Position numbers and translations under genes: made by a program. This document shows, piece by piece, positions 1,640-62,404 of a stretch of 64,000 nucleotides of DNA. The DNA is from Hafnia alvei (lineage in GTDB: Bacteria; Pseudomonadota; Gammaproteobacteria; Enterobacterales; Enterobacteriaceae): contig NZ_FMIQ01000070.1 in the NCBI RefSeq assembly GCF_900095695.1, forward strand, positions 1-64,000, in the 5' to 3' direction. Positions within the stretch are counted from its first letter, which is position 1, and each line of letters begins with the position of its first letter. The notes under the pieces are model-generated. The model saw nothing but the letters and a program-made list of their open reading frames with translations, was not told the DNA's origin and did no database searches.

Positions 1640-2974
1640 ATGGAACAAAATCATAATCGCCGTTTAAATCGGCAGGACTACAAGACTTTGACGTTGGCAG
1701 CCTTGGGCGGCGCGTTAGAGTTCTACGATTTCATCATTTTTGTGTTCTTCGCGGCGGTTGTCAGCGATCTCTTCTTCCCAGTCGATATGCCTGAGTGGCT
1801 GCGTCAAGTGCAGACCTTCGGGATTTTTGCCGCCGGTTATCTGGCTCGTCCGCTTGGTGGGATCATCATGGCGCATTTTGGTGACAAGGTCGGGCGCAAA
1901 AAAATGTTCTCCCTGAGTATCTTGCTGATGGCATTGCCAACGTTGGCGATGGGGATGCTGCCGACTTATCAAAGTATTGGTATTGCCGCACCGCTATTGC
2001 TGCTGCTGATGCGCGTGCTGCAGGGCGCGGCGATTGGCGGTGAAGTGCCGGGCGCTTGGGTATTTGTGGCCGAGCATGTGCCGCGCAAACGCGTTGGATT
2101 TGCCTGCGGCACCTTAACCGCGGGATTAACCGCCGGTATTTTGTTGGGATCGCTGGTGGCCACCTTGCTCAATACGGTAATGAGCCAAGACGCTATTTTG
2201 GCCGGTGGCTGGCGTATTCCGTTCTTCTTAGGTGGGATCTTTGGCCTGTTTGCCATGTACCTGCGTCGCTGGTTACAAGAAACGCCGATTTTTATCGAAA
2301 TGCAGGCGCGTAAGGCGTTAGCCGAAGAGATGCCGTTGAAAACGGTGGTGAAAAATCATCGCACCGAAGTGGCTATTTCAATGCTGCTCACGTGGCTGTT
2401 GTCGGCCGGTATTGTGGTGGTGATCCTGATGACGCCAACCTATTTGCAAAAACAGTTTGGCATTTCACCGGCGCTGGCATTACAGGCTAACTGCTTGGCG
2501 ACGATAGCGCTGACGATTGGCTGCGTGATTGCTGGGCGTTTAATTGATCGCTTTGGCGCGAGCAAAACCTTTATCGTTGGCAGCCTATTTTTAGCCGTGT
2601 GTAGCTGGACGTTTTACCACTCGGTAGCCGCTGGCGTCAGCGCCGAGCAGTTATTCTTGGGCTATGCGCTTGCCGGATTCAGCGTGGGTATTGTGGGCGC
2701 GGTGCCTTATGTCATGGTAAGAGCGTTCCCCGCCGAGGTACGTTTCAGCGGAATTTCATTCTCCTATAACGTGGCCTACGCCATCTTCGGGGGATTAACG
2801 CCAATTTTTGTTACGCTAATTATGAAAGTGACGCCGATGGCTCCGGCATATTACGTGTTGGCGCTGTCACTGGTTGGATTGCTGCTGGGGCTTTATTTAC
2901 AGCGTGATTTAAATAGTGAGGCTCATGCTGAAAATAAGCCGTTAGTGCCATCGGGGCACCAAGAACACAGCTAA
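1640..2974 (+). CDS. MFS transporter, metabolite:H+ symporter (MHS/ProP-like) type
   Basis: The 444-residue protein has about 12 hydrophobic segments and the major facilitator loop motif between TM2 and TM3 (HFGDKVGRKKMF, about residues 80-91). The N-terminal signature ALEFYDFIIF and the second-half motif GRLIDRFGASK fit the MHS branch that includes ProP, ShiA and YhjE. The branch carries solutes as different as proline, shikimate, citrate and ketoglutarate, so the substrate is unknown. It is a single-gene unit, with 165 bases before it and an intrinsic terminator after it. It lies directly upstream of nanR but is separated from it by that terminator, so a role in sialic acid use is only possible by position. 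Confidence 0.85.
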   Translation: MEQNHNRRLNRQDYKTLTLAALGGALEFYDFIIFVFFAAVVSDLFFPVDMPEWLRQVQTFGIFAAGYLARPLGGIIMAHFGDKVGRKKMFSLSILLMALPTLAMGMLPTYQSIGIAAPLLLLLMRVLQGAAIGGEVPGAWVFVAEHVPRKRVGFACGTLTAGLTAGILLGSLVATLLNTVMSQDAILAGGWRIPFFLGGIFGLFAMYLRRWLQETPIFIEMQARKALAEEMPLKTVVKNHRTEVAISMLLTWLLSAGIVVVILMTPTYLQKQFGISPALALQANCLATIALTIGCVIAGRLIDRFGASKTFIVGSLFLAVCSWTFYHSVAAGVSAEQLFLGYALAGFSVGIVGAVPYVMVRAFPAEVRFSGISFSYNVAYAIFGGLTPIFVTLIMKVTPMAPAYYVLALSLVGLLLGLYLQRDLNSEAHAENKPLVPSGHQEHS

Positions 2975-2985
2975 ATCATTATCGT

Positions 2986-3018
2986 AAACGCTCTGCCGCC
3001 TTGGCAGGGCGTTTTTGC
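2986..3018 (+). terminator. Intrinsic terminator after the MFS gene
   Basis: An 11-bp stem (2987-2997 with 3003-3013, one G-T pair, GCCTT loop) runs into a T tract. It sits 12 bases after the stop codon and separates the transporter from nanR. Confidence 0.85.
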
Positions 3019-3186
3019 TTAGGGTAAACATCACGCTTTCAACATTCCTGCTTGCTTAGCCGTCTCTCTTTTCCTATGTTATGCTTCAAGCGAACTTTCT
3101 CTTATCAGCCCAGTGGGTTTATTGAAATATCATAGACTTCCTGCGATTGGATTTATCACTGACGGAACCAGCCAGAACGTTAATTT

Positions 3187-51690: not shown

Positions 51691-54596
51691 TATTGATGAG
51701 ACACCACGATGAGGCGAATCGCATCCAAACGCCAGCCGGCCTGATCCAGGTTCTCTAGCACCTGACGGCGGTTGAATTCCAGCGTTTCCAGCTCGTCATC
51801 ACGAATGTTCGGGTTAACGGCTTTCAAGGATTCCAAGCGCGCCAGTTCAGCGCTGAGTTTTTCGTCGGCTTCACGTTTCGCTTCGTTGATGAGCGCAGTC
51901 GCTTGCTCGCCAATCAGCGCCTCGCCTGCTTGCAGCATGGCGTGGACGTTCGGCTGAACGGCGTTCACCAGCTTGCTCGAAGTGTGGCGGTTGATGGAGT
52001 TCAACTGACGGTTAAAGCTCTCAAACTCAACCTGAGCGGCTAAGTTGGTGCCTTTCGCGTCCAACAGCATACGTACCGGCGTTGGCGGCAAGAAACGGGT
52101 CAGTTGCAGGTGTTTCGGTGCCTGAGCTTCCACCACGTAAATGGCTTCTAACAGCAGCGTGCCCACTGGCAATGCCTTGTTTTTCAACAAAGAAACTGCG
52201 CAGCTACCGGTATCGCCAGACAAGATCAGATCCAAGCCGTTGCGAATAATCGGATGTTCCCAGCTAATAAACTGTGCATCTTCGCGTGACAGAGCCTGTT
52301 CACGGTCGAAGGTGACGGTGCAGCCATCCTGCGGCAGACCTGGGAAATCAGGCACCAGCATATGTTCTGACGGCGTCAGGATAATCATGTTGTCGCTCTG
52401 ATCGTCCTGATTGATACCCACGATATCAAACAGATTCAGCGCAAAGTTCACCAAGCCAACGTCGTTATCCTGATCGGCAATGGCTTCAGCCAGTTCTTGC
52501 GCGGCTTCGCCGCCGTTTGAATGCATTTCTAACAGGCGATCGCGGCCCTGTTCCAGTTGAACTTTCAGAGTATCGTGCTGAGCGCGGCACTCTTTGATGA
52601 AGTCATCAAAACCGTCCAACTGAGACGGTGCAGCCAAATAGCCCAGTAGCGTTTGATAGCTGCTGTCATAGATGGTGCGTCCGGTTGGGCAAGTATGCTC
52701 AAACGCATCCAGACCTTCGTGATACCAGCGAACCAAGACCGACTGCGCGGTGTTTTCTAGGCAAGGAACGAAAATCTTGATGTCGTGATTCTGGCCAATA
52801 CGGTCCAGACGGCCAATACGCTGTTCCAGCAGGTCAGGGTTGAATGGCAGGTCGAACATCACCAGATGGTGAGCGAACTGGAAGTTACGCCCTTCAGAGC
52901 CGATTTCGGAACACAGCAATACCTGTGCGCCATCTTCCTGCGAAGCAAAATAGGCCGCCGCACGGTCGCGTTCAATAATGGTCATGCCTTCGTGGAATAC
53001 CGCACCGCGAATTGCTTCGCGCTCGCGCAGTACCTGTTCCAAATTGACTGCCGATGCCGCCTGAGCGCAAATCACCAGCACTTTCTCATCGCGATGTGAG
53101 GTCAGGAAATTCATCAGCCATTCAACGCGTGGATCGAAGTTCCACCACGTGGCATTTTCGCCTTCAAATTCTTGGTAAATACGCTCTGGATACAGCATAT
53201 CGTTGGCGCGCGCTTCAACCGTTTTTTTGCTGCCCATAATACCGGACACTTTAATCGCGGTTTGATACTGCGAAGGCAATGGCAACGTAATCTGATGCAG
53301 TTCGCGCTGCGGGAAGCCTTTCACGCCCTGACGGGTATTACGGAACAGCACGCGGCTGGTGCCGTGGCGATCCATCAGCATTTTGACCAGCTCATTACGG
53401 GCGTCAACGCTGCCGGTGCCGCCAGCGTTAGCCGCTTTCAGCAATGGCTCAATATCTTGCTCGGCGATCATTTCGCTCAGCATATTGAGCTCTTCGTTGG
53501 TCAGATGACCATCGTTGAGCAGCAGCGTCACCGCGTCGGCGACCGGACGATATTTCTGCTGTTCGCTGACAAACTCTTGATAGTCATGGAAACGGTTTGG
53601 ATCGAGCAGGCGCAGGCGGGCAAAGTGGCTCTCTTGGCCTAATTGCTCTGGGGTGGCGGTTAACAGCAGCACGCCGGGGATATGCTCGGCTAATTGCTCG
53701 ATCACTTGGTATTCGCGGCTTGGCGCGTTTTCGCTCCATGCCAAATGATGTGCTTCATCGACGACTAACAGATCCCATGCGGCATCTGCCATTTGCTCTA
53801 AGCGCTGACGGTTGCGGCGCACAAAGTCCAGCGAGCAAATCACCATCTGTTCGGTTTCGAACGGGTTGGTTGCATCCAGCATGGCTTCGGCGTAGCGAGC
53901 ATCGTCAAACAGCGAGAAGCGCAGATTGAAGCGACGCAGCATTTCTACCAGCCACTGATGCTGCAAGGTTTCTGGAACCACAATCAGGATACGCTCAGCG
54001 CGACCCGCCAGCAGTTGCTGGTGGATAATCATCCCTGCTTCAATGGTTTTACCCAAACCCACTTCATCGGCGAGCAGAACGCGAGGCGCGTGGCGCTGAC
54101 CCACTTCATAAGCAATGTGCAACTGATGCGGGATCAGGCTGGCGCGCATACCGCGCAGGCCGCTCCACGGAAGACGGAACTGTTCGCTTTGATATTTACG
54201 CGCACGGAAACGCAGCGCAAAGCGATCCATACGGTCGATTTGCCCGGCAAACAGGCGGTCTTGAGGTTTGCTGAAGGTCAGTTTGCTATCGAGCAATACT
54301 TCGCGCATCACAACGTTAGCTTCTTCAGTATCCAATCGGGTGCCGATATACGTCAGCAGACCATTTTCCTCTTTGACTTCATCTATCTTTAACTGCCAGC
54401 CATCGTGGCTGGTGATAGTGTCACCCGGATTAAACATGACGCGGGTAATTGGGGAGTCATTACGTGAGTAAAGGCGGTTTTCGCCGGTCGCAGGGAAAAG
54501 CAATGTCACCATGCGGGCATCGATCGCCACAACGGTTCCTAATCCTAATTCGCTTTCCGTATCGCTGATCCAGCGTTGACCTAAGGTAAATGGCAT
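51690..54596 (-). CDS. rapA: RNA polymerase-associated SWI2/SNF2 ATPase RapA (HepA)
   Basis: RapA binds RNA polymerase and promotes its recycling after termination. The 968 residues equal E. coli. It has N-terminal Tudor-like domains (about 1-107), a SNF2 helicase core with [16 protein letters not shown] (about 175-190), the DEAH box in [11 protein letters not shown] (about 278), [11 protein letters not shown], and motifs V and VI in [13 protein letters not shown] and [12 protein letters not shown] (about 555-607), then a C-terminal RapA-specific part. It is upstream of rluA with a one-base overlap and downstream of polB. Confidence 0.98.
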
Positions 54597-54825
54597 AGAT
54601 TATCGACTCAACTTTTATGTATTGAACACTGATGATTGAACAACTACTGCATGGGCAGCAGGCGCTGCCGTGGGTAAGTGATTTTCACTTGGCCTACATT
54701 ATTAGCGATAGCGGGCCGCTTCGTTGCTTGAATTAAGCAATGAAGTAAATGTTTTAACTGAGGGAAGGGCGCTATGTTAAAGGATGAAGGCGCTTTCGTC
54801 ACCCCCAAACATGGAATTGTCTTAA

Positions 54826-57180
54826 CTAAAATAACCCGAGCTGGCCTGCGACCAGCGTGGTGAAGTCATCCTGCATGAACGGCAAAATAGCGTCGGCAAC
54901 CGGTTGTAGCTGACGTGAAAGGTAATGATCGTAGTCAATAGGGGCACGTTGGCGCTCTAATGGCTCAGGGCCTGCGGTGGTAATCACATAGCTAATCCAA
55001 CCGCTGTTTTGATACTGCAATGGACGATTAAGCTCACGATTATAGTCATCGGCAATTTTCGCCGCGCGAGCATGGGGGGGAACATTGCGCTGATATTCAC
55101 TCAGCTTGCGTCTTAGCCGTTTACGGTAAACCAAGCGGTCGTCAAATTCTCCCGCTAACAGGCGTTGGGTGTAATCGCGGATAAACTCTTGGTAAGGCTG
55201 GTTTTTAAATATGCGCGCATACAGCTCTTGTTGAAATTGCTGCGCCAGCGGCGTCCAGTCACTACGCACGGTTTCCATGCCTTTGTACATCATTTCGTCG
55301 CCTTTCAGACCCGCATAGCGCTTTTTGCTGCCAAGTTCGGCACCACGGATAGTCGGCATTAAAAAGCGCCGATAGTGGCATTCATATTCCAATTCTAACG
55401 CGCTGTCTAAGCCATATTCGGCTTGCAGGTGATCTTTCCACCATTGGTTTATCAGGGCGATCAGGCGTTGTCCGATAGCTTCAGCCTGTTTTTCATCGTG
55501 CGCATAATTGAGCCACACAAAAGTTGAATCCGTATCGCCGTAAATCACCGGATAGCCCTCTGCTTCAATCAACTCTCGCGTGCGGCGCATAATCTCATGG
55601 CCACGCATCGTTATGGATGATGCGAGGCGTGGATCGAAGAATCGACATCCGCTTGAACCCAATACGCCGTAAAACGCATTCATAATAATTTTGAGCGCCT
55701 GAGAGAGTGGGGCGTTTTTTTCGCGCTTAGCGGCCTCGCGGCCTTGCCATATTTGGCTCACGATATCCGGCAAACAGTGCTGCTCGCGGGCAAACCGTGC
55801 GCCGCGAAAACCGGCGACGGAGTGTTCATCGTCAGGCTGGCGCAGGCCCTCGATAAGCCCAACGGGGTCAATTAAGAAGGTACGAATAATCGAGGGGTAC
55901 AGGCTTTTATAATCTAGCACCAGCACAGAATCATACAGGCCGGGGCGCGAATCCATCACGAAGCCACCGGGGCTGGCCTCTTCGGGTAAATCGCCTTGAT
56001 TCGGTGCGACAAAACCGACGCGGTGCATGCGTGGTAAATAAAGATGCGTGAACGCGGCAACCGAACCGCCGTTGCGATCGGCATTTAAGCCCGTGACCGT
56101 GGCGCGTTCGAGTAAAAACGTCATCAGATGGGTATGCTCGAATATGCGGGTGACGAGTTCGCAGTCTTTCAGGTTGTAGTGTGCCAGCGCGGGTTTATCT
56201 TCGCGGAATCGACGATCGATTTCAGACATTCGGCTGTAGGGATCGTCCATCGCCTTCCCTTCGCCTAACAGCGTTTGAGACACATTTTCTAAGCTGAAAG
56301 AGGGGAAGTTCCAAAACGCGCTTTTTAGGGCTTCAATGCCGTCGATAATCAGGCGTCCGGTGGCAGCGGCGAAAAAGTGTCCTTGTTTAAAGCCATGCTC
56401 GCGCCACTCTAGCGCATCGCCCCCGCGGCCTAAACGCAAGGGAACGCCGTAACGCTCGGCGTGTTTTTGTAGCACGCGCAGATCAAACTGGATCAGATTC
56501 CAACCGATGATGGCATCAGGATCGTAATGCGCCATCCACTGATTTAAGGCTTCGAGCAACAGTGGGCGACTGTTCACGTAAACCAGATCGAAATCGAGCT
56601 GGCTAGCATCTCCATTTTCAGGGCCTAACATATACACCACGCGCTGGCCGCAGCCATGCAGACCGATGGAATAAAGCTCGCCGTGCATGGTGGTTTCGAT
56701 ATCCAGTGATACCAGCTTAAGCGTTGGGCGATAGCTGGGGTTCGGTTTTAGCTGCGTATTGCGCCAAACGCCTTGTGTATCCTGCTGGCCTGAAAACCAC
56801 ACCGGAGCGCAGATAAAACGCTCCATCAAATAGCGATCTGGCGGGCGGATATCCGCTTCATACAGCGTCATGCCTTGTTCCTTGAGGGTTTTCTCAAGGT
56901 TCATTAATTGGCGATAGCTACGGCAATAAATCCCCACGACGGGACGCTGATGAAAATCCTTCATCGGCAGCGGTTTTATCTCAATATTGCGCTCGTTTTT
57001 CAGCACCTTCTCTGCCTGTGGCAGCTGTTCTGCGGGTAAAAACGCAACGGCTTGTTGCGGCGCAATAGAGACTTTCTGTGGGCCGTTATCGGTCGCCAGC
57101 CACAGCTCCACCGACACGCCAGCCGGTGTATCCCGCCAATGACGGGTGAGGACGAAGCCTTGCTGTGGGGTATTTGCCAT
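54826..57180 (-). CDS. polB: DNA polymerase II
   Basis: Pol II is a family B polymerase with proofreading, induced in the SOS response and used in replication restart and lesion bypass. The 784 residues (783 in E. coli) have the exonuclease motif VSLDIETT (about 155) and [13 protein letters not shown], and the polymerase motifs [13 protein letters not shown] (about 420) and [11 protein letters not shown] (about 546). A LexA-like box lies 44 bases upstream of the start, fitting SOS control. E. coli has the ara genes next; here a repeat-bearing spacer follows upstream. Confidence 0.98.
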
Positions 57181-57223
57181 CGCGGTGATTTTTACCGATT
57201 AGGTTGCTGAGAACATAGCTAGT

Positions 57224-57239
57224 ATGAGTATTTATACAG
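57224..57239 (-). promoter_or_regulatory. LexA-like box upstream of polB
   Basis: On the minus strand the site reads CTGTATAAATACTCAT: a perfect CTG half, the AT-rich N10, and CAT in place of CAG. The E. coli polB box also begins CTGTATAAA. The weak second half suggests a leaky SOS operator. Confidence 0.65.
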
Positions 57240-57333
57240 TGGTTGTCTATTATTAGGCTTAAGGCTACGTGTGGTGATTGTTTATGATGGAGTGGTGTTA
57301 GGTTTCGTACGCTTATAGGCATCGAACTTCACA

Positions 57334-57507
57334 GTGACATTGTGCAAGCGTCCGAGCAAGGCGGCTCAGTCGCCGCCGCCTTGCATCCGGGCTTGGCACC
57401 ACCTTCCAGCCCGCTGCGCGGGTTCCCTCTCTACAAACTATGGGTTTAACCGCACCGTCGCAGAGGCGCTCCCGGCGCCCCTACGACTCTCGCCACATCC
57501 CTGTGGC
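57334..57507 (-). repeat. Structured intergenic repeat, copy A (minus orientation)
   Basis: Read on the minus strand, this copy has four hairpins in order: H1 GCCAC-AGGGAT-GTGGC (57507-57492); H2, a 13-bp stem (57487-57475 with 57469-57457, two G-T pairs); H3 CCCGC-GCA-GCGGG (57422-57410); H4, a 10-bp stem GCAAGGCGGC (57384-57375 with 57365-57356). After H4 comes CGGACGCTTGCAC. It is a diverged inverted copy of 57684-57863. Single-stranded parts GTTAAA, GGAACC and GGTGCC are shared, while the stems vary with pairing kept. Confidence 0.8.
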
Positions 57508-57683
57508 TCGTGCTGACCCGTCGTTTTTCGTTCGGCTGTACGGTAACGTGCCGGAGAAGGTCAACAGCCATAACTAAAAGCTAAAAATCCAAAGCTAAAA
57601 GAGTTGATGGGCAATGTTATCTTTTGACGTTGACCTGATGTGGCACGTTGTCCTTCAGCTGAATTGAGGAATGCAGGTTAGGA

Positions 57684-57863
57684 TTCGCCGACAGGGATGT
57701 CGGCGAAAGAACGGAGGAGCCAGGATGGCGATTGCCGTTCGTTCCGTTAAAACCGAAATGACGAGATGAAGGAACCTGCGTAGCAGGCTGAGGGACGGTG
57801 CCGAGCCGGGTCGCTAGGGGGCGGCGGTGAGCCCCCTAGCACGGACGCCCGCACTATTTTGAT
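57684..57863 (+). repeat. Structured intergenic repeat, copy B (plus orientation)
   Basis: This copy has H1 TTCGCCGAC-AGGGAT-GTCGGCGAA (57684-57707); H2 with outer stem GAACGG (57709-57714) and CCGTTC (57735-57740) and an inner GCC-AGGAT-GGC; H3 CCTGC-GTA-GCAGG (57775-57787); H4 GCTAGGGGGC (57813-57822) with GCCCCCTAGC (57831-57840); then CGGACGCCCGCAC. Loops and linkers match copy A. Stem bases differ from copy A in compensating pairs, for example T-A to C-G in H3 and two pairs in H4. Confidence 0.82.
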
Positions 57864-58019
57864 ATTAGCACCGATGCGTTAGGCGTACGTAACATCACAC
57901 AGCACCTATACTCATTAAGTTACTCATTTGTAAATAAACGTTTATCCCGGCAATGATAGGTTGACGGCAAACGGTCGGCTCCGCAAAATCGCTGGCTCAT
58001 TATTTCCGGTGGAAGAATT

Positions 58020-58787
58020 ATGGAAGCGTACCTGCAACACTTGGTGACCCAATCGGTAACCTACTCTCTGATCGCCGTGTTTTTAGTGGCGTTTTTGGAG
58101 TCTTTAGCATTGGTCGGGCTGCTTTTACCAGGTACGGTGATGATGGCAACGCTGGGCGCATTAATTGGCAGCGGACAGGTGAATTTCTACTATGCGTGGG
58201 GTGTGGGGATTCTGGCGTGTTTTGCCGGCGATTGGGTCTCCTATTTTATTGGCCGCGCTTTCAAAGATCCGCTCCATCGCTGGTCATTTATCAAGAAAAA
58301 CAAAGCGCTGCTTGATCGAACCGAACATGCTCTCCATCGTCATAGCATGATGACGGTGCTGATTGGCCGTTTCGTTGGCCCAACGCGGCCGGTTGTACCG
58401 ATGGTGGCGGGCATGCTGGCACTGCCGCCACGCAAATTTATTCCACCTAATATTATTGGCTGTATCACGTGGCCGCCGGTGTATTTCCTGCCGGGGATCT
58501 TAGCCGGTGTCGCGATTGATATACCGGCAGGCAGCGGTAGCACGTTATTCAAAGTGTTATTGGCGTTGGTAGTGGTTTCGATTTGGATTGCGGCGTGGCT
58601 GAGTTGGCGCTGGTGGCGAGAGGGCAAACGCTCGGCGGATAAACTGTCTCAGTGGCTTACACCGTGGCGTCTACGTATTGCAGCCGTTGCCATGTGGATC
58701 GCCGCCGTAGTGAGCTTTGTGCTGATGCATAACCACCCGCTGATGCCAATTTATCGCTCGCTGCTGTGGAAGGTGGTGCAGTTTTAG
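58020..58787 (+). CDS. yabI: DedA-family inner membrane protein YabI
   Basis: The 255 residues (254 in E. coli) form a DedA/SNARE-associated domain membrane protein. The family marks are FLESLALVGLLLPG (about 26-39), GDWVSYFIGRAFK (about 71-83) and IGRFVGPTRPVVPMVAG (about 115-131) with conserved Gly-Arg-Phe and Arg-Pro. DedA proteins are linked to proton-dependent lipid carrier recycling and membrane potential upkeep; the exact job of YabI is unknown. It lies directly before thiQ in E. coli; here a small gene sits between. Confidence 0.95.
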   Translation: MEAYLQHLVTQSVTYSLIAVFLVAFLESLALVGLLLPGTVMMATLGALIGSGQVNFYYAWGVGILACFAGDWVSYFIGRAFKDPLHRWSFIKKNKALLDRTEHALHRHSMMTVLIGRFVGPTRPVVPMVAGMLALPPRKFIPPNIIGCITWPPVYFLPGILAGVAIDIPAGSGSTLFKVLLALVVVSIWIAAWLSWRWWREGKRSADKLSQWLTPWRLRIAAVAMWIAAVVSFVLMHNHPLMPIYRSLLWKVVQF

Positions 58788-58832
58788 TTGTGTGGGTAGA
58801 TTCTTTGAAGTGTATGGAGAGCGAGTTAATCG

Positions 58833-59129
58833 ATGGAGATGATGATGAAAACTGTAACGGTAATTTTATTGTTTTTGGTATTTAGCAGCTATTCATTTGG
58901 CGAGGAAAACAATGAACCTTCAGATATCGCTGAATTTACTATAACCGCCGAGAACTGTGAACATTTTGCAGGTGAGTGGGATAACACCCTTCCCGAAGAA
59001 AATAAGAAGATGATTGAAAAATCAATCGCTCAATATTGCGGTAAAGCAAAAAAAGACCTACCTGAGTTAAGAAAAAAATATCAAAACAATAAGGATGTTA
59101 CCGAAATTTTATCAGGCTATTCATTTTAA
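58833..59129 (+). CDS. Small exported protein of unknown function
   Basis: I do not recognise this 98-residue protein. It starts with a clear signal peptide (MKTVTVILLFLVFSSYSFG, cleavage likely before EENNEP), so it is probably periplasmic, leaving about 75 residues. The mature part is acidic at first and Lys-rich later, with exactly two Cys (AENCEHF and QYCGKAK) that could form a disulfide. The start may be ATG 58833 or 58845: four in-frame ATG codons lie close together. The DNA is clearly more AT-rich than yabI and thiQ, which suggests recent acquisition. Confidence 0.65.
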   Translation: MEMMMKTVTVILLFLVFSSYSFGEENNEPSDIAEFTITAENCEHFAGEWDNTLPEENKKMIEKSIAQYCGKAKKDLPELRKKYQNNKDVTEILSGYSF

Positions 59130-59136
59130 AATACCG

Positions 59137-59832
59137 CTACCGCCCCAACAACGCCGCAGCCGCCGGATCTTTTCCATCTAACAGATCTTGAGTGGTGCCA
59201 TCATAGGCAATGCGCCCATCGGCAACCAATAATGTACGTGTGGCGATACGTGCGGCGTCATCAAGATTATGTGACACCATCAGCAGGGTGAGATTTTGCT
59301 CTGAACAAACCTGTTCTAATAGCTGTAGCATTTCTCCTCGCAGCGCGGGATCGAGCGCGGAGAAAGGTTCGTCGAGCAGTAAAATAGGCTGGTCGCGTAA
59401 CAAACAGCGTGCCAGTGCGGCGCGCTGGCGTTGACCGCCGGAAAGCTGCGACGGCAATCGCGGTAGGCAATCAAGAATTCCCACCTGCTGAGCAATTTCA
59501 TTCATGCGCTTTTTCTGCGTGCCATTTAGGCGTAATCCCGCATCTAACCCCAACCCCAGATTTTGCTCAATGCTTAGATGAGAGAACAAATTGTTCTCTT
59601 GGAACAGCATCGATACCGGGCGTTTGGACGGCGGCGTACTGGTGTGATTCACGCCATCTAACGTTACTGTGCCTTTATCGGCCATCAAAAAACCAGCAAT
59701 CAAGGCCAGCAGTGTACTTTTGCCCGCACCGCTCGGGCCCAAAATGGCCACGCGTTCTCCGGCGGAGATGTTAAGTGAAAAACGCATCGGCTGATGCTCA
59801 TAGATATAAGTGAGATCGTTCAGCGTAATCAT
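59137..59832 (-). CDS. thiQ: Thiamine ABC transporter ATPase ThiQ
   Basis: ThiQ powers the ThiBPQ importer for thiamine and its phosphates. The 231-residue ABC protein has Walker [10 protein letters not shown] (33-41), the Q loop in [11 protein letters not shown], the signature [16 protein letters not shown] (about 129-144), Walker [14 protein letters not shown] and the switch His in MVSHNLDDA. The start overlaps the thiP stop by four bases. It is the last gene of thiBPQ and converges on the small exported gene. Confidence 0.96.
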
Positions 59833-61433
59833 GATTTATCTCGCCCCGGAAGACGTTCCAGCAGAGTGAAAAGTAAGAAGCACAAGATCAGCAATAACAG
59901 CGCGGTGACCGCACCGTCTTGGCTACGATAGGCGCCGATTTGCTGATACAGGTAGAAAGGCAGCGTACGGAATTGCTCGTTGCCAAACAGGGCAACCACG
60001 CCAAAATCGCCTAAGGACAGCACGCAGGCAAACGCCATGGCTTGAGAAAGCGGGCGTTTGAGCGCGCGCAGCTCTATCAGCCTTAATCGGTTGAACCCCT
60101 GAATTCGCAGCGATAGACAGAGCGGATTGTAGCGCTCGGCCAAATCGCGCATAGGGTTTTCTAACACTTTAAGCGCGTAGGGAATGGCCATTAATGCGTT
60201 GGTTAAAATCACCAGTCCATAGGCCGATTGTGGAATGCCAATAGTATCGGTTAGCAGTAAAAAGAAGCCTGTTGCGAGCACGATACCGGGCATGGCTAAT
60301 ATCAGCATTCCGGTCAGTTCCATACCTTGTCCTAACCAGCGATGCTGGCGTAGCAGAAGTTCACGGCTGCTCCATAGCAACATCATCGTTAGCGTTACGG
60401 CCAGCAAGCCAGCGCCTAGCGCAATTTTTAACGATGTGAACGTGGCCTGCCATAGCACGGGCTGAGTCAGCACGCTGGCAAAAGCATGATTCGCGCCGTC
60501 TGCTATCACCGCGAGCAGCGGAGGAAGGATAAGCAACAGCGCGCAGAAAATCACGCCGCTATCCAGCAACCGCGCCGCCACGTTATCGACGGGATTACGC
60601 CATTTCAGCGCTCGCGTATGACCGACTGGCAGGATGCCGCTAAGCTTTTGACTCAGCAAAACTAAACCCAAACAGCACAACAGTTGCAGTATGGCCAGCA
60701 GTGCGGCGCGGCTGAGATCATAGTCGTAGCTTAAAGCCTGATAGATCGCCAGCTCGATGGTGGTTGCCTGCGGGCCGCCGCCGAGAGAAAGCACGGTGGC
60801 AAAGCTGGCGAAACACAACATGAATATCAGCGCGCCGGCGGGCAGAATTTGGCGGCGTAGATAAGGCCATTCAACAAAACGGAACTGTTGCCAATTGCTC
60901 ATGCCAAGCTGGGCGGCTAGTTGGCGCTGTTCGGTCGGAATATTTTCTAAGGCCTGAAGTAGTAAACGTGCGGCGAGCGGCAGGTTAAAGAAAATATGTG
61001 CCAGCAAAATGCCCTGTAAGCCGTAGGGCGAAAAGGTGTAATCAAGGCCGAGAAACTGACAAATCTGTGCCAGCCAGCCCTGTCTGCCATACACGCTGAG
61101 GATCCCAAAGACCGCGACCAGCACGGGCAATACCAGCGTCATGGCGCACAGGCGTAGCAATAGCTGACGGCCTAAAAAACGGCGGCGAAACAGCGCCCGA
61201 GCCAGCAAAATAGCCGGTAGAACCGAGCAAACGGCGGAGAGAAACGCCTGCCAGAAGGTGAAACGAATAACGTGCCACAGATAATCGTCTTGCCACAGGC
61301 TACGCCAATCCGACTCTGGCGCATGGCGCCAGAGTGAACCAAATGATGCCGCTGCGATGGCAATAATCGCCATCGCAGCGAACAATCCAGGGATTAACCA
61401 GAACGGAATTAACGGCTGACGGCGGCTTGCCAT
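59829..61433 (-). CDS. thiP: Thiamine ABC transporter permease ThiP
   Basis: ThiP is the inner membrane channel of the thiamine importer, a fused permease with two halves of about six membrane segments. The two EAA-type loops that contact ThiQ are visible around [20 protein letters not shown] and [19 protein letters not shown]. The length is 534 residues from ATG 61433 ([16 protein letters not shown], the E. coli-like start, 536 there); ATG 61445 is an alternative. The start lies inside the end of thiB, a 25-base overlap, as in E. coli. Confidence 0.95.
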
Positions 61434-62404
61434 GAGCGGATCCATGTTGCGCGGTTTTCAGCCACTTCGGCAGGCGTAAATTCTAAGGCTTTTGCTGGAA
61501 CTTTCAGCTGTTCAAAACCCGCAGGCAGCGTGGTTTTAATCACCGGATACATCCAGTTGCCGGTTGGCATTTCGTTCTGGAAAGCTGGAGTGGTAATAAA
61601 CTGCATAAATTTCTGTGCTAGCTGCGGTTGCTTGCTACCGGCGAGCTGAGCCGCAACTTCTACCTGTAAGTAGTGGCCTTCGCTTAATTCGGCGGCTGCG
61701 TAGTTCTCTTTTTTCTCTTCGATAATGTGATACGCCGGCGACGTGGTGTAGCTCAGTACCAAATCTGCTTCGCCTTTCAAGAACAGGCCATAGGCCTCAC
61801 TCCATCCCTTGGTCACCGTCACGGTTTTCTTCGCCAGTTTTTGCCACGCCTGCGGAGCGTCGTTGCCGTAAACCTTTTGCATCCAAAGCATTAAACCTAA
61901 CCCCGGCGTGCTGGTGCGCGGATCTTGATAAATCACTTTCCATTTCTCAGGACCATCGACCAGCTGTTTCAGACTGGTAGGCGGGTTTTTCAGCGTGTTT
62001 TTGTTGTAAACGAAAGCGAAATAGCCGTAGTCATAAGGCACAAAGGTTTTATTCTGCCAGCCACCGGGAACGGTGAGCGACTGAGCATCGACTTCGCTAG
62101 GTACAAACAGGCCGGTTTTTTCGGCGGCTTGCACTAAATTATTGTCCAACCCCAATACTACGTCGGCGCTGCTTTTTTTGCCTTCCATGCGAACTCGGTT
62201 AAGCACCGAAACGCCGTCTTCCAGCGCCACAAACTTCAGCTCGCAGCCACACTCTTTTTCAAACGCCGCTTTAACCTTCGGGCCAGGGCCCCATTCAGCG
62301 GCAAAAGAATCGTAGGTATAAACAGTGAGAACGGGTTTATCAGCGCTGTGAGCCAACATAGGTGCGGCGATCAGCATTAAGGCAGGAATCAATCGTTTCA
62401 ACAC
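61409..62404 (-). CDS. thiB: Thiamine-binding periplasmic protein ThiB
   Basis: ThiB (TbpA) captures thiamine, TMP and TPP in the periplasm for ThiPQ. The 331-residue protein (327 in E. coli) has a signal peptide MLKRLIPALMLIAAPMLAHS before ADKPVLTVYTYDSF, and a two-lobe binding fold with FVPYDYGYFAFVYNK (about 127-141), DPRTSTPGLGLMLWMQ and a GWSEAYGLFLKGEADLVLSY segment typical of the family. It is the first gene of thiBPQ and is preceded by a TPP riboswitch. Confidence 0.97.
   Translation of the reverse strand: MLKRLIPALMLIAAPMLAHSADKPVLTVYTYDSFAAEWGPGPKVKAAFEKECGCELKFVALEDGVSVLNRVRMEGKKSSADVVLGLDNNLVQAAEKTGLFVPSEVDAQSLTVPGGWQNKTFVPYDYGYFAFVYNKNTLKNPPTSLKQLVDGPEKWKVIYQDPRTSTPGLGLMLWMQKVYGNDAPQAWQKLAKKTVTVTKGWSEAYGLFLKGEADLVLSYTTSPAYHIIEEKKENYAAAELSEGHYLQVEVAAQLAGSKQPQLAQKFMQFITTPAFQNEMPTGNWMYPVIKTTLPAGFEQLKVPAKALEFTPAEVAENRATWIRSWQAAVSR

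Follow-up and report, generated by a model that had tools for sequence, protein, structure and literature searches.

The 64,000-nucleotide stretch of Hafnia alvei DNA analysed here, called the window, contains an intergenic region (57181-58019) enclosed by a polB ORF (54826-57180, minus strand) and a dedA/yabI ORF (58020-58787, plus strand), both names being assigned by reading. E. coli K-12 has araD, araA, araB and araC between polB and yabI, as stated in the first-pass annotation of this DNA. In the window, two hairpin-rich elements face each other in the region. What is this pair, and what are its hairpins for? The locus places an RNA motif already described into a setting that is new: the motif is here part of a high-copy repeat, arranged in pairs and bearing sites of the CsrA type, for which mobility is seen in a sister genus. 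We read it, at a probability of about 0.55, as one copy of a MITE- or YPAL-like repeat that would carry two unlike candidate CsrA-site RNA modules, one per strand. The interpretation of the first-pass annotation, taken as a whole, is partly supported.

Organization of the window pair

The two diverged elements contain four hairpins each (H1 to H4) in the same order, as originally described. The intervals then reported are correct, but the feature extends further, in that outward tails are found beyond both elements and 5' leaders enter the spacer (Table 1). The gap between the elements measures 175 bases. When the reverse complement of the left element is compared to the right one, 68 of 91 positions are identical (75%, E=2e-13) over the H3-H4-tail tract, and a separate match covers the H1 loop. 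The copies are alike over the 3' half; the 5' halves (H1-H2) are different modules, each having copies elsewhere. Stem differences preserve pairing, a claim that was verified both for H3 (CCCGC/GCGGG versus CCTGC/GCAGG) and for H4, where the differences between the left and right stems compensate. Each copy features two tandem GGA-loop hairpins, with loops AGGGAT and AGGAT in the right copy, AGGGAT and CGGGA in the left one, and all four GGA loops are retained. The tails, by reading, are GGTGTTAGGTTTCGTACGC and GGCGTACGTAACATCAC, and IS4-type ends are absent from them. A LexA-like half box (ACTGTATAAATACTCAT, minus strand, 57215-57235) was noted by eye between the pair and polB, on the upstream side of this gene.

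Table 1. Features of the hairpin pair in the window
Feature	Position	Strand	Remarks
Left element	57334-57508	-	minus sense
Left outward tail	57294-57312	-	terminal-repeat-like; AAGGTTTCG-type in relatives; motif recurs at outer ends of relatives
Left H4, long GC-rich hairpin	57356-57384	-	by reading; H4 covaries in relatives
Left H3 hairpin, CCCGC-GCA-GCGGG	57410-57422	-	
Left H2 hairpin, loop CGGGA	57457-57487	-	GGA in loop
Left H1 hairpin, ACAGGGATGT CsrA-type loop	57492-57507	-	likened to the SELEX consensus RUACARGGAUGU
AT-rich spacer, including 5' leaders	57531-57640		no promoter-like match inside
Right element	57684-57863	+	plus sense
Right H1 hairpin, ACAGGGATGT CsrA-type loop	57684-57707	+	
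Right H2 hairpin, AGGAT loop	57709-57740	+	
Right H3 hairpin, CCTGC-GTA-GCAGG	57775-57787	+	
Right H4 hairpin	57813-57840	+	
RF01731 (TwoAYGGAY) match	57636-57786	+	57.3 bits, gathering threshold 43
Right outward tail	57881-57899	+	motif recurs at outer ends of relatives

A dispersed family with TwoAYGGAY modules

A cmscan search of the interval 52000-62000 at E≤1 gave a single match, to the TwoAYGGAY motif (RF01731), located in the right copy and scoring above the gathering threshold; the left copy is not among the matches. A match to a named family had been indicated at the outset as what would remove novelty, and such a match exists for one half of the pair, the right one. TwoAYGGAY and rsmX carry the same Rfam clan number, CL00106, and CsrA binding has already been proposed for TwoAYGGAY (PMC4333381, in the part of the text available). 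The right copy resembles the motif in score and in its two tandem GGA-loop hairpins. It differs from it in that H3, H4 and a tail pointing outward are added, in that it makes up half of a high-copy inverted pair, and in that relatives of this pair are mobile.

Queries included, the left copy has 14 DNA matches in its own genome, the right copy 13. The right copy has matches in three of 30 genomes (own genome included), all belonging to one genus, with 22 matches in the congener G001 and 15 in the congener G002. Such numbers indicate that the elements are repeats, and not chance similarities. No DNA match turned up in plasmids, phages or E. coli, and an origin from any of them was rejected. RF01731 itself is more widespread. 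At E≤0.01, and with scoring limited to 64 candidates per genome, it matches 11 of the 30 genomes, 8 of them over the cut-off, and none of 14 controls; in the window genus its places are 19 in the own genome, 46 in G001 and 24 in G002. At E≤1e-5, matches across the order were found in at least 64 of 295 genomes and at least 18 of 100 genera (controls 0/14), counts that are lower bounds because at most 9 candidates were scored per genome. Near pairs of other genera, matches to the Rfam families Ysr276 (145 bits, L057 1-186) and DsrA (74 bits, L052 668-754) were observed.

Conserved loops on changing stems

Both the identity of the family and selection on its structure are near certain. Covariation was counted against one structure in 40 B-type copies from three species (37 distinct rows). 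Paired cells amount to 99.3%, 14 of 36 pairs feature double-sided changes, and cells with double change are 115, versus 31.0±4.3 after shuffling. At most one pair changes on both sides in slid controls, a comparison leaning towards the chosen structure, because this was picked from the same sequences. Further pair types are below the shuffles (21, a value reached or exceeded by every one of 500 shuffles, versus 26.2), and in the 40 copies no double change was seen in the 4-pair helix farthest out (119-122 with 173-176). The strong compensatory change across these related copies argues that the structure is under selection, and lends strong support to what the first-pass annotation had deduced from two copies.

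The GGA of the H1 loop is kept in 38 of the 40 B copies, the two exceptions being orthologs, and that of the H2 loop in 39 of them. Among 29 A-type copies, the stem of H1 has been rewritten several times around ACAGGA(T/G)GT. In the left-hand type, represented by eight copies, three of which are from genus G005, both loops similarly keep GGA on different stems, by reading. GGA and TCC are found on the sense strand 289 and 50 times in B copies (shuffled, 242.6±10.3 and 61.9±6.3), and 231 and 6 times in A copies (170.4±7.8 and 41.8±5.2). Ten elements of other genera, pooled, yield 64 and 13 (51.0±5.3 and 18.6±3.0), and several of them taken singly are not above shuffles.

SELEX with CsrA gave the consensus RUACARGGAUGU, whose GGA sits in a hairpin loop (PMC4347634, in the text accessible), and csrA genes are present in 29 of the 30 genomes, own genome included. 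Several GGA sites, some in hairpin loops, are found in the elements as in decoys of the CsrB/RsmX type, which share with them also the rsmX clan number. A CsrA function is predicted on these sequence features, and well motivated. The RNA element suspected in the first-pass annotation was partly right, in that the loops fit a CsrA site on one strand.

Head-to-head pairing of unlike modules

The 46 RF01731 places of G001 form 17 neighbour pairs spaced less than 500 bp, and the 24 places of G002 form six; all are arranged minus-then-plus, with 5' ends facing. The single neighbour pair formed by the 11 places of G013 lies on one strand, and head-to-head arrangement is therefore not a rule for every RF01731 match. 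Module-specific queries, run on the window and 60 further loci, revealed 46 neighbour pairs spaced less than 400 bp, and 45 of these are head to head. None of the 45, a count including orthologous loci, has the same 5' module on both sides; random re-pairing gives a mean of 12.9 such pairs and a minimum of 3 in 10,000 draws. In G001 alone, 27 of 27 pairs are head to head, and none is homotypic. By reading, head-to-head pairs occur also in other genera, for example at L052 and L057.

The predicted openness of the loop GGAs in the right-hand module, averaged over 18 pairs, is 0.90 for the module by itself, falls to 0.66 when the native partner is present and to 0.00 when the module is artificially paired with its own kind, which suggests that sites stay usable when partners are unlike. 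Avoidance of a perfect DNA palindrome would explain the pairing rule equally well.

Outer 3' parts (H4 plus tail) are found in tandem beside some pairs (L079, about 2800-3100; L092, about 2380-2520; L050, 580-1080; L053, 1051-1420). The pair centres at L092, L095, L083, L050 and L059 host short tandem repeats varying in number, such as AAAAGAC or GAAGTCTGCGG.

Conservation in the window genus

Insertions in the window genus look old. Eight G001 loci were looked up in G000 and G002, and no clean empty site was found. At three of the eight, the pair is replaced in G002 by a different dispersed repeat (ACCCTAACCCTCCCC..GGGGAGGG), as if the two families shared gene-end targets; the replaced loci are L192, L184 and L196 in G002, corresponding to L100, L087 and L097 in G001. 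Direct repeats in the flanks are no commoner than at mismatched loci (usable loci of the window genus, 25 of 49). The window copy has inverted tails, and neither a target duplication nor a clean empty site was seen. A rearrangement point, also considered in the first-pass annotation, is not needed to account for it, although the orientation of the entire pair differs between species at two further loci (L084/L110 and L095/L183), the flanks being colinear.

Alignment over the element reaches at least 85% in 18 of 28 ortholog comparisons. In 16 of 16 high-identity comparisons with coding flanks, a set chosen by identity (at least 85% over the element), the element exceeds the identity of 4-fold sites. 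Pooled over all 28, element identity is only 82.8%, versus 81.4% for 4-fold sites, because in the other 10 comparisons pairs are inverted, replaced or changed. At the window locus, identity to G001 and G002 is 98.5% and 97.3% for the right element, 98.9% and 83.8% for the left one (in G002 the tail differs), and 98.9% in both for the spacer; coding flanks are 93-94% identical on both sides, and 4-fold sites of polB and yabI 79.9-83.0%.

As the spacer is as conserved as the hairpins, a recent exchange of the segment is conceivable, and the window pair might be a functionless relic kept similar between species by such an exchange. The relic would also agree with the spacer free of promoter-like matches and with the arms, predicted to anneal in an ortholog of the window pair (loop GGA openness 0.09 in the pair versus 0.72 alone). 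The copy, however, keeps all its GGA loops, and the exchange would have to stop near the intergenic region, since identity in the coding flanks is only 93-94%. We regard a relic as unlikely.

Location at gene ends

By a simple ORF rule, 46 of the 49 G001 and G002 loci were scored; genes are convergent at 23, codirectional at 21 and divergent at 2, and 44 of the 46 loci are found at the 3' end of at least one gene. Both divergent loci are orthologs of the window locus, itself between divergent genes. Read-through between convergent or codirectional genes meets one module in antisense, and then one in sense. With the two modules oriented in opposite directions, read-through from left or right would produce a single module in sense. 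For the window copy, a promoter of its own or antisense transcription would be necessary.

Gene ends and long GC-rich hairpins would suit also a mobile repeat with hairpins merely stabilising or ending messages at operon ends without any role of CsrA, the loop being a chance or stability feature. YPAL sequences of Yersinia have been reported to be co-expressed with upstream genes, perhaps affecting RNA stability (PMC2229807, in the text accessible). A stabiliser of this kind appears rather improbable, as the loop letters persist on stems that are replaced, both between modules and in a further genus, and the sense strand of A copies is poor in TCC (6 versus 41.8±5.2).

According to the same available text, YPAL/RU-2 is a dispersed repeat of about 168 bp, with 3-26 bp target duplications and dyad targets (PMC2229807). 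The RU-2 sequence printed in the accessible part of PMC2759123 folds with two GGA-loop hairpins, and the likeness to our elements, compared by fold alone, lies in this fold and in the dispersal. Unlike the pair, YPAL is described as single units, and neither head-to-head pairs nor a link to CsrA were found in the part of PMC2229807 available. Target duplications, of 13 bp, occur in the sister genus; none was found in the window genus at the 25 of 49 loci that were usable.

Mobility in a sister genus

Mobility was demonstrated in a sister genus only (G011, G030, G031 and G032), which we infer to be Pseudocitrobacter. The G011 pair (L052:1104-1736) measures 633 bp. In three of three congeners searched (G030, G031, G032) its flanks adjoin with a 13-bp overlap, an empty site indicating that the pair went in whole, as a single unit, with duplication of CTGTCAGCGGGGG. 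A 97% identical copy is located in G032 (L198:1507-2139) inside an intrinsic terminator, between 13-bp direct repeats TCCCTTACGGGGG. The corresponding site hosts the terminator hairpin without insert in G030 and G011; in G031 the search recovered no more than a portion of the left flank, where a contig ends. The G030 copy (L199) has no clean duplication. The mobile palindromic element hypothesized at first was therefore partly right, in that such pairs moved as a unit in this genus.

The L052 and L198 copies have ends TAAKGCTGGTCAGTTAAG. Ends of sister-genus pairs (TAATGCTGGTCAGTTAAG) resemble those of E. coli K-12 IS4 (TAATGCCGATCAGTTAAG and TAATGCCAGTCAGTTAAG), with 2 to 4 mismatches out of 18 over three copies, and the duplications, found in two of the three, are 13 bp long versus 12 bp for IS4. 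Target duplications in the IS4 family range from 11 to 13 bp. Unlike IS4, the 633-bp unit contains no transposase, and window-genus tails differ. Terminal inverted repeats and a target duplication, the hallmarks of MITEs, are both found in the unit, which may be moved in trans by an IS4-type transposase. IS4-type ends (TAATGCCGATCATTTAAG or TAATGCTGGTCACTTAAG) were observed 71-126 bases from the start of the G031 contigs C39, C53, C56, C127 and C169, suggesting multi-copy IS4 relatives in that genome.

Selfish DNA repeats could also be spread by REP/RAYT- or IS200-like (HUH) transposases reading the loops of hairpins formed by single-stranded DNA, which would account for the conservation of the loops. 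REPs are palindromic units located between genes, and their head-to-head dimers are often made of unlike partners (PMC3733652, in the text available). CGTC-tagged REPs were set aside, as the likeness is confined to the reverse-complement tail (PMC3733652, same text). Reading of single-stranded DNA by a transposase would be strand-specific, too, and Y1 transposases are encoded by 13 of 30 relatives. PF01797 (Y1/RAYT) has three matches in G001 and six in G002, but none in the own genome, in G005 or in G011, all hosting elements; moreover, the units are about fivefold longer than REPs (180 versus 20-40 bp). IS4-type ends and 13-bp duplications, as found in the mobile copies, are typical marks of DDE transposases, which act on double-stranded ends. 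Such an enzyme would not need the inner hairpins, which favours selection on RNA. A REP/RAYT origin, also envisaged in the first-pass annotation, is weak and not favoured, since the own genome lacks a Y1 transposase, though congeners have some, and we give the single-stranded DNA alternative a low probability.

The spacer

A divergent pair of CsrB-like decoy sRNAs with promoters of their own in the spacer would fit the divergent genes of the window locus, the facing 5' ends of the modules and the 98.9% spacer identity in both congeners (4-fold sites, about 80%), but is very doubtful, as consensus scans detected two promoter-like sites (0.8 expected), both outside the pair and none within the spacer, and no terminator-like site (0 found), and the spacers of other loci differ in both length and sequence. 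From CsrB/RsmX-type RNAs the elements differ also because dispersed in many copies.

Significance of the family

The reading that we prefer, a mobile repeat equipped with candidate CsrA sites, may be detailed as follows. The repeat, non-coding and high in copy number, would consist of two unlike RNA modules of the TwoAYGGAY type in head-to-head arrangement. Each module would display, on its own sense strand, two GGA-loop hairpins of the CsrA/RsmA type, followed by H3, the long H4 and the outward tail, and the pair would move as a unit, as the 633-bp element of the sister genus with its IS4-like ends and 13-bp duplications. Transcripts including a two-site CsrA ligand would likely titrate CsrA, or put the upstream message under CsrA control, and the window copy would work like the other pairs. 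Several observations count against this reading. The window pair lies between divergent genes, an exception among the scored loci, its arms are predicted to anneal, and its left copy has no RF01731 match at E≤1; promoter-like matches are absent from the spacer and terminators from the pair, and the window genus yielded neither target duplications nor clean empty sites at the loci examined; the spacer is conserved like the hairpins, and pooled elements are close to 4-fold sites (82.8 versus 81.4%); the GGA excess is weaker in the ten elements of other genera (64 versus 51.0±5.3).

In the open-licence PMC literature, to the extent that its text was accessible, no description was found of TwoAYGGAY modules as a dispersed repeat, of head-to-head pairing of unlike modules, of stem turnover with constant GGA loops and GGA enrichment on one strand, of dispersed repeats linked to CsrA, or of a mobile pair with IS4-like ends.

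In a broader and more tentative perspective, which we consider possible, a mobile family would spread candidate CsrA-binding modules to operon ends of Enterobacterales, creating a distributed CsrA sponge or 3'-UTR regulon, and the inverted pair of unlike modules would be an orientation-proof design. Whichever the orientation upon landing, read-through would include a single CsrA ligand with two sites, able to fold properly. Two subjects so far treated apart, dispersed palindromic repeats and an orphan RNA motif for which CsrA binding is predicted, are in this way joined. If so, transposition would rewire a global post-transcriptional regulator, genomes with dozens of pairs would bear a hidden CsrA-titrating load, and the old question of the purpose of such repeats would become directly testable with one known protein.
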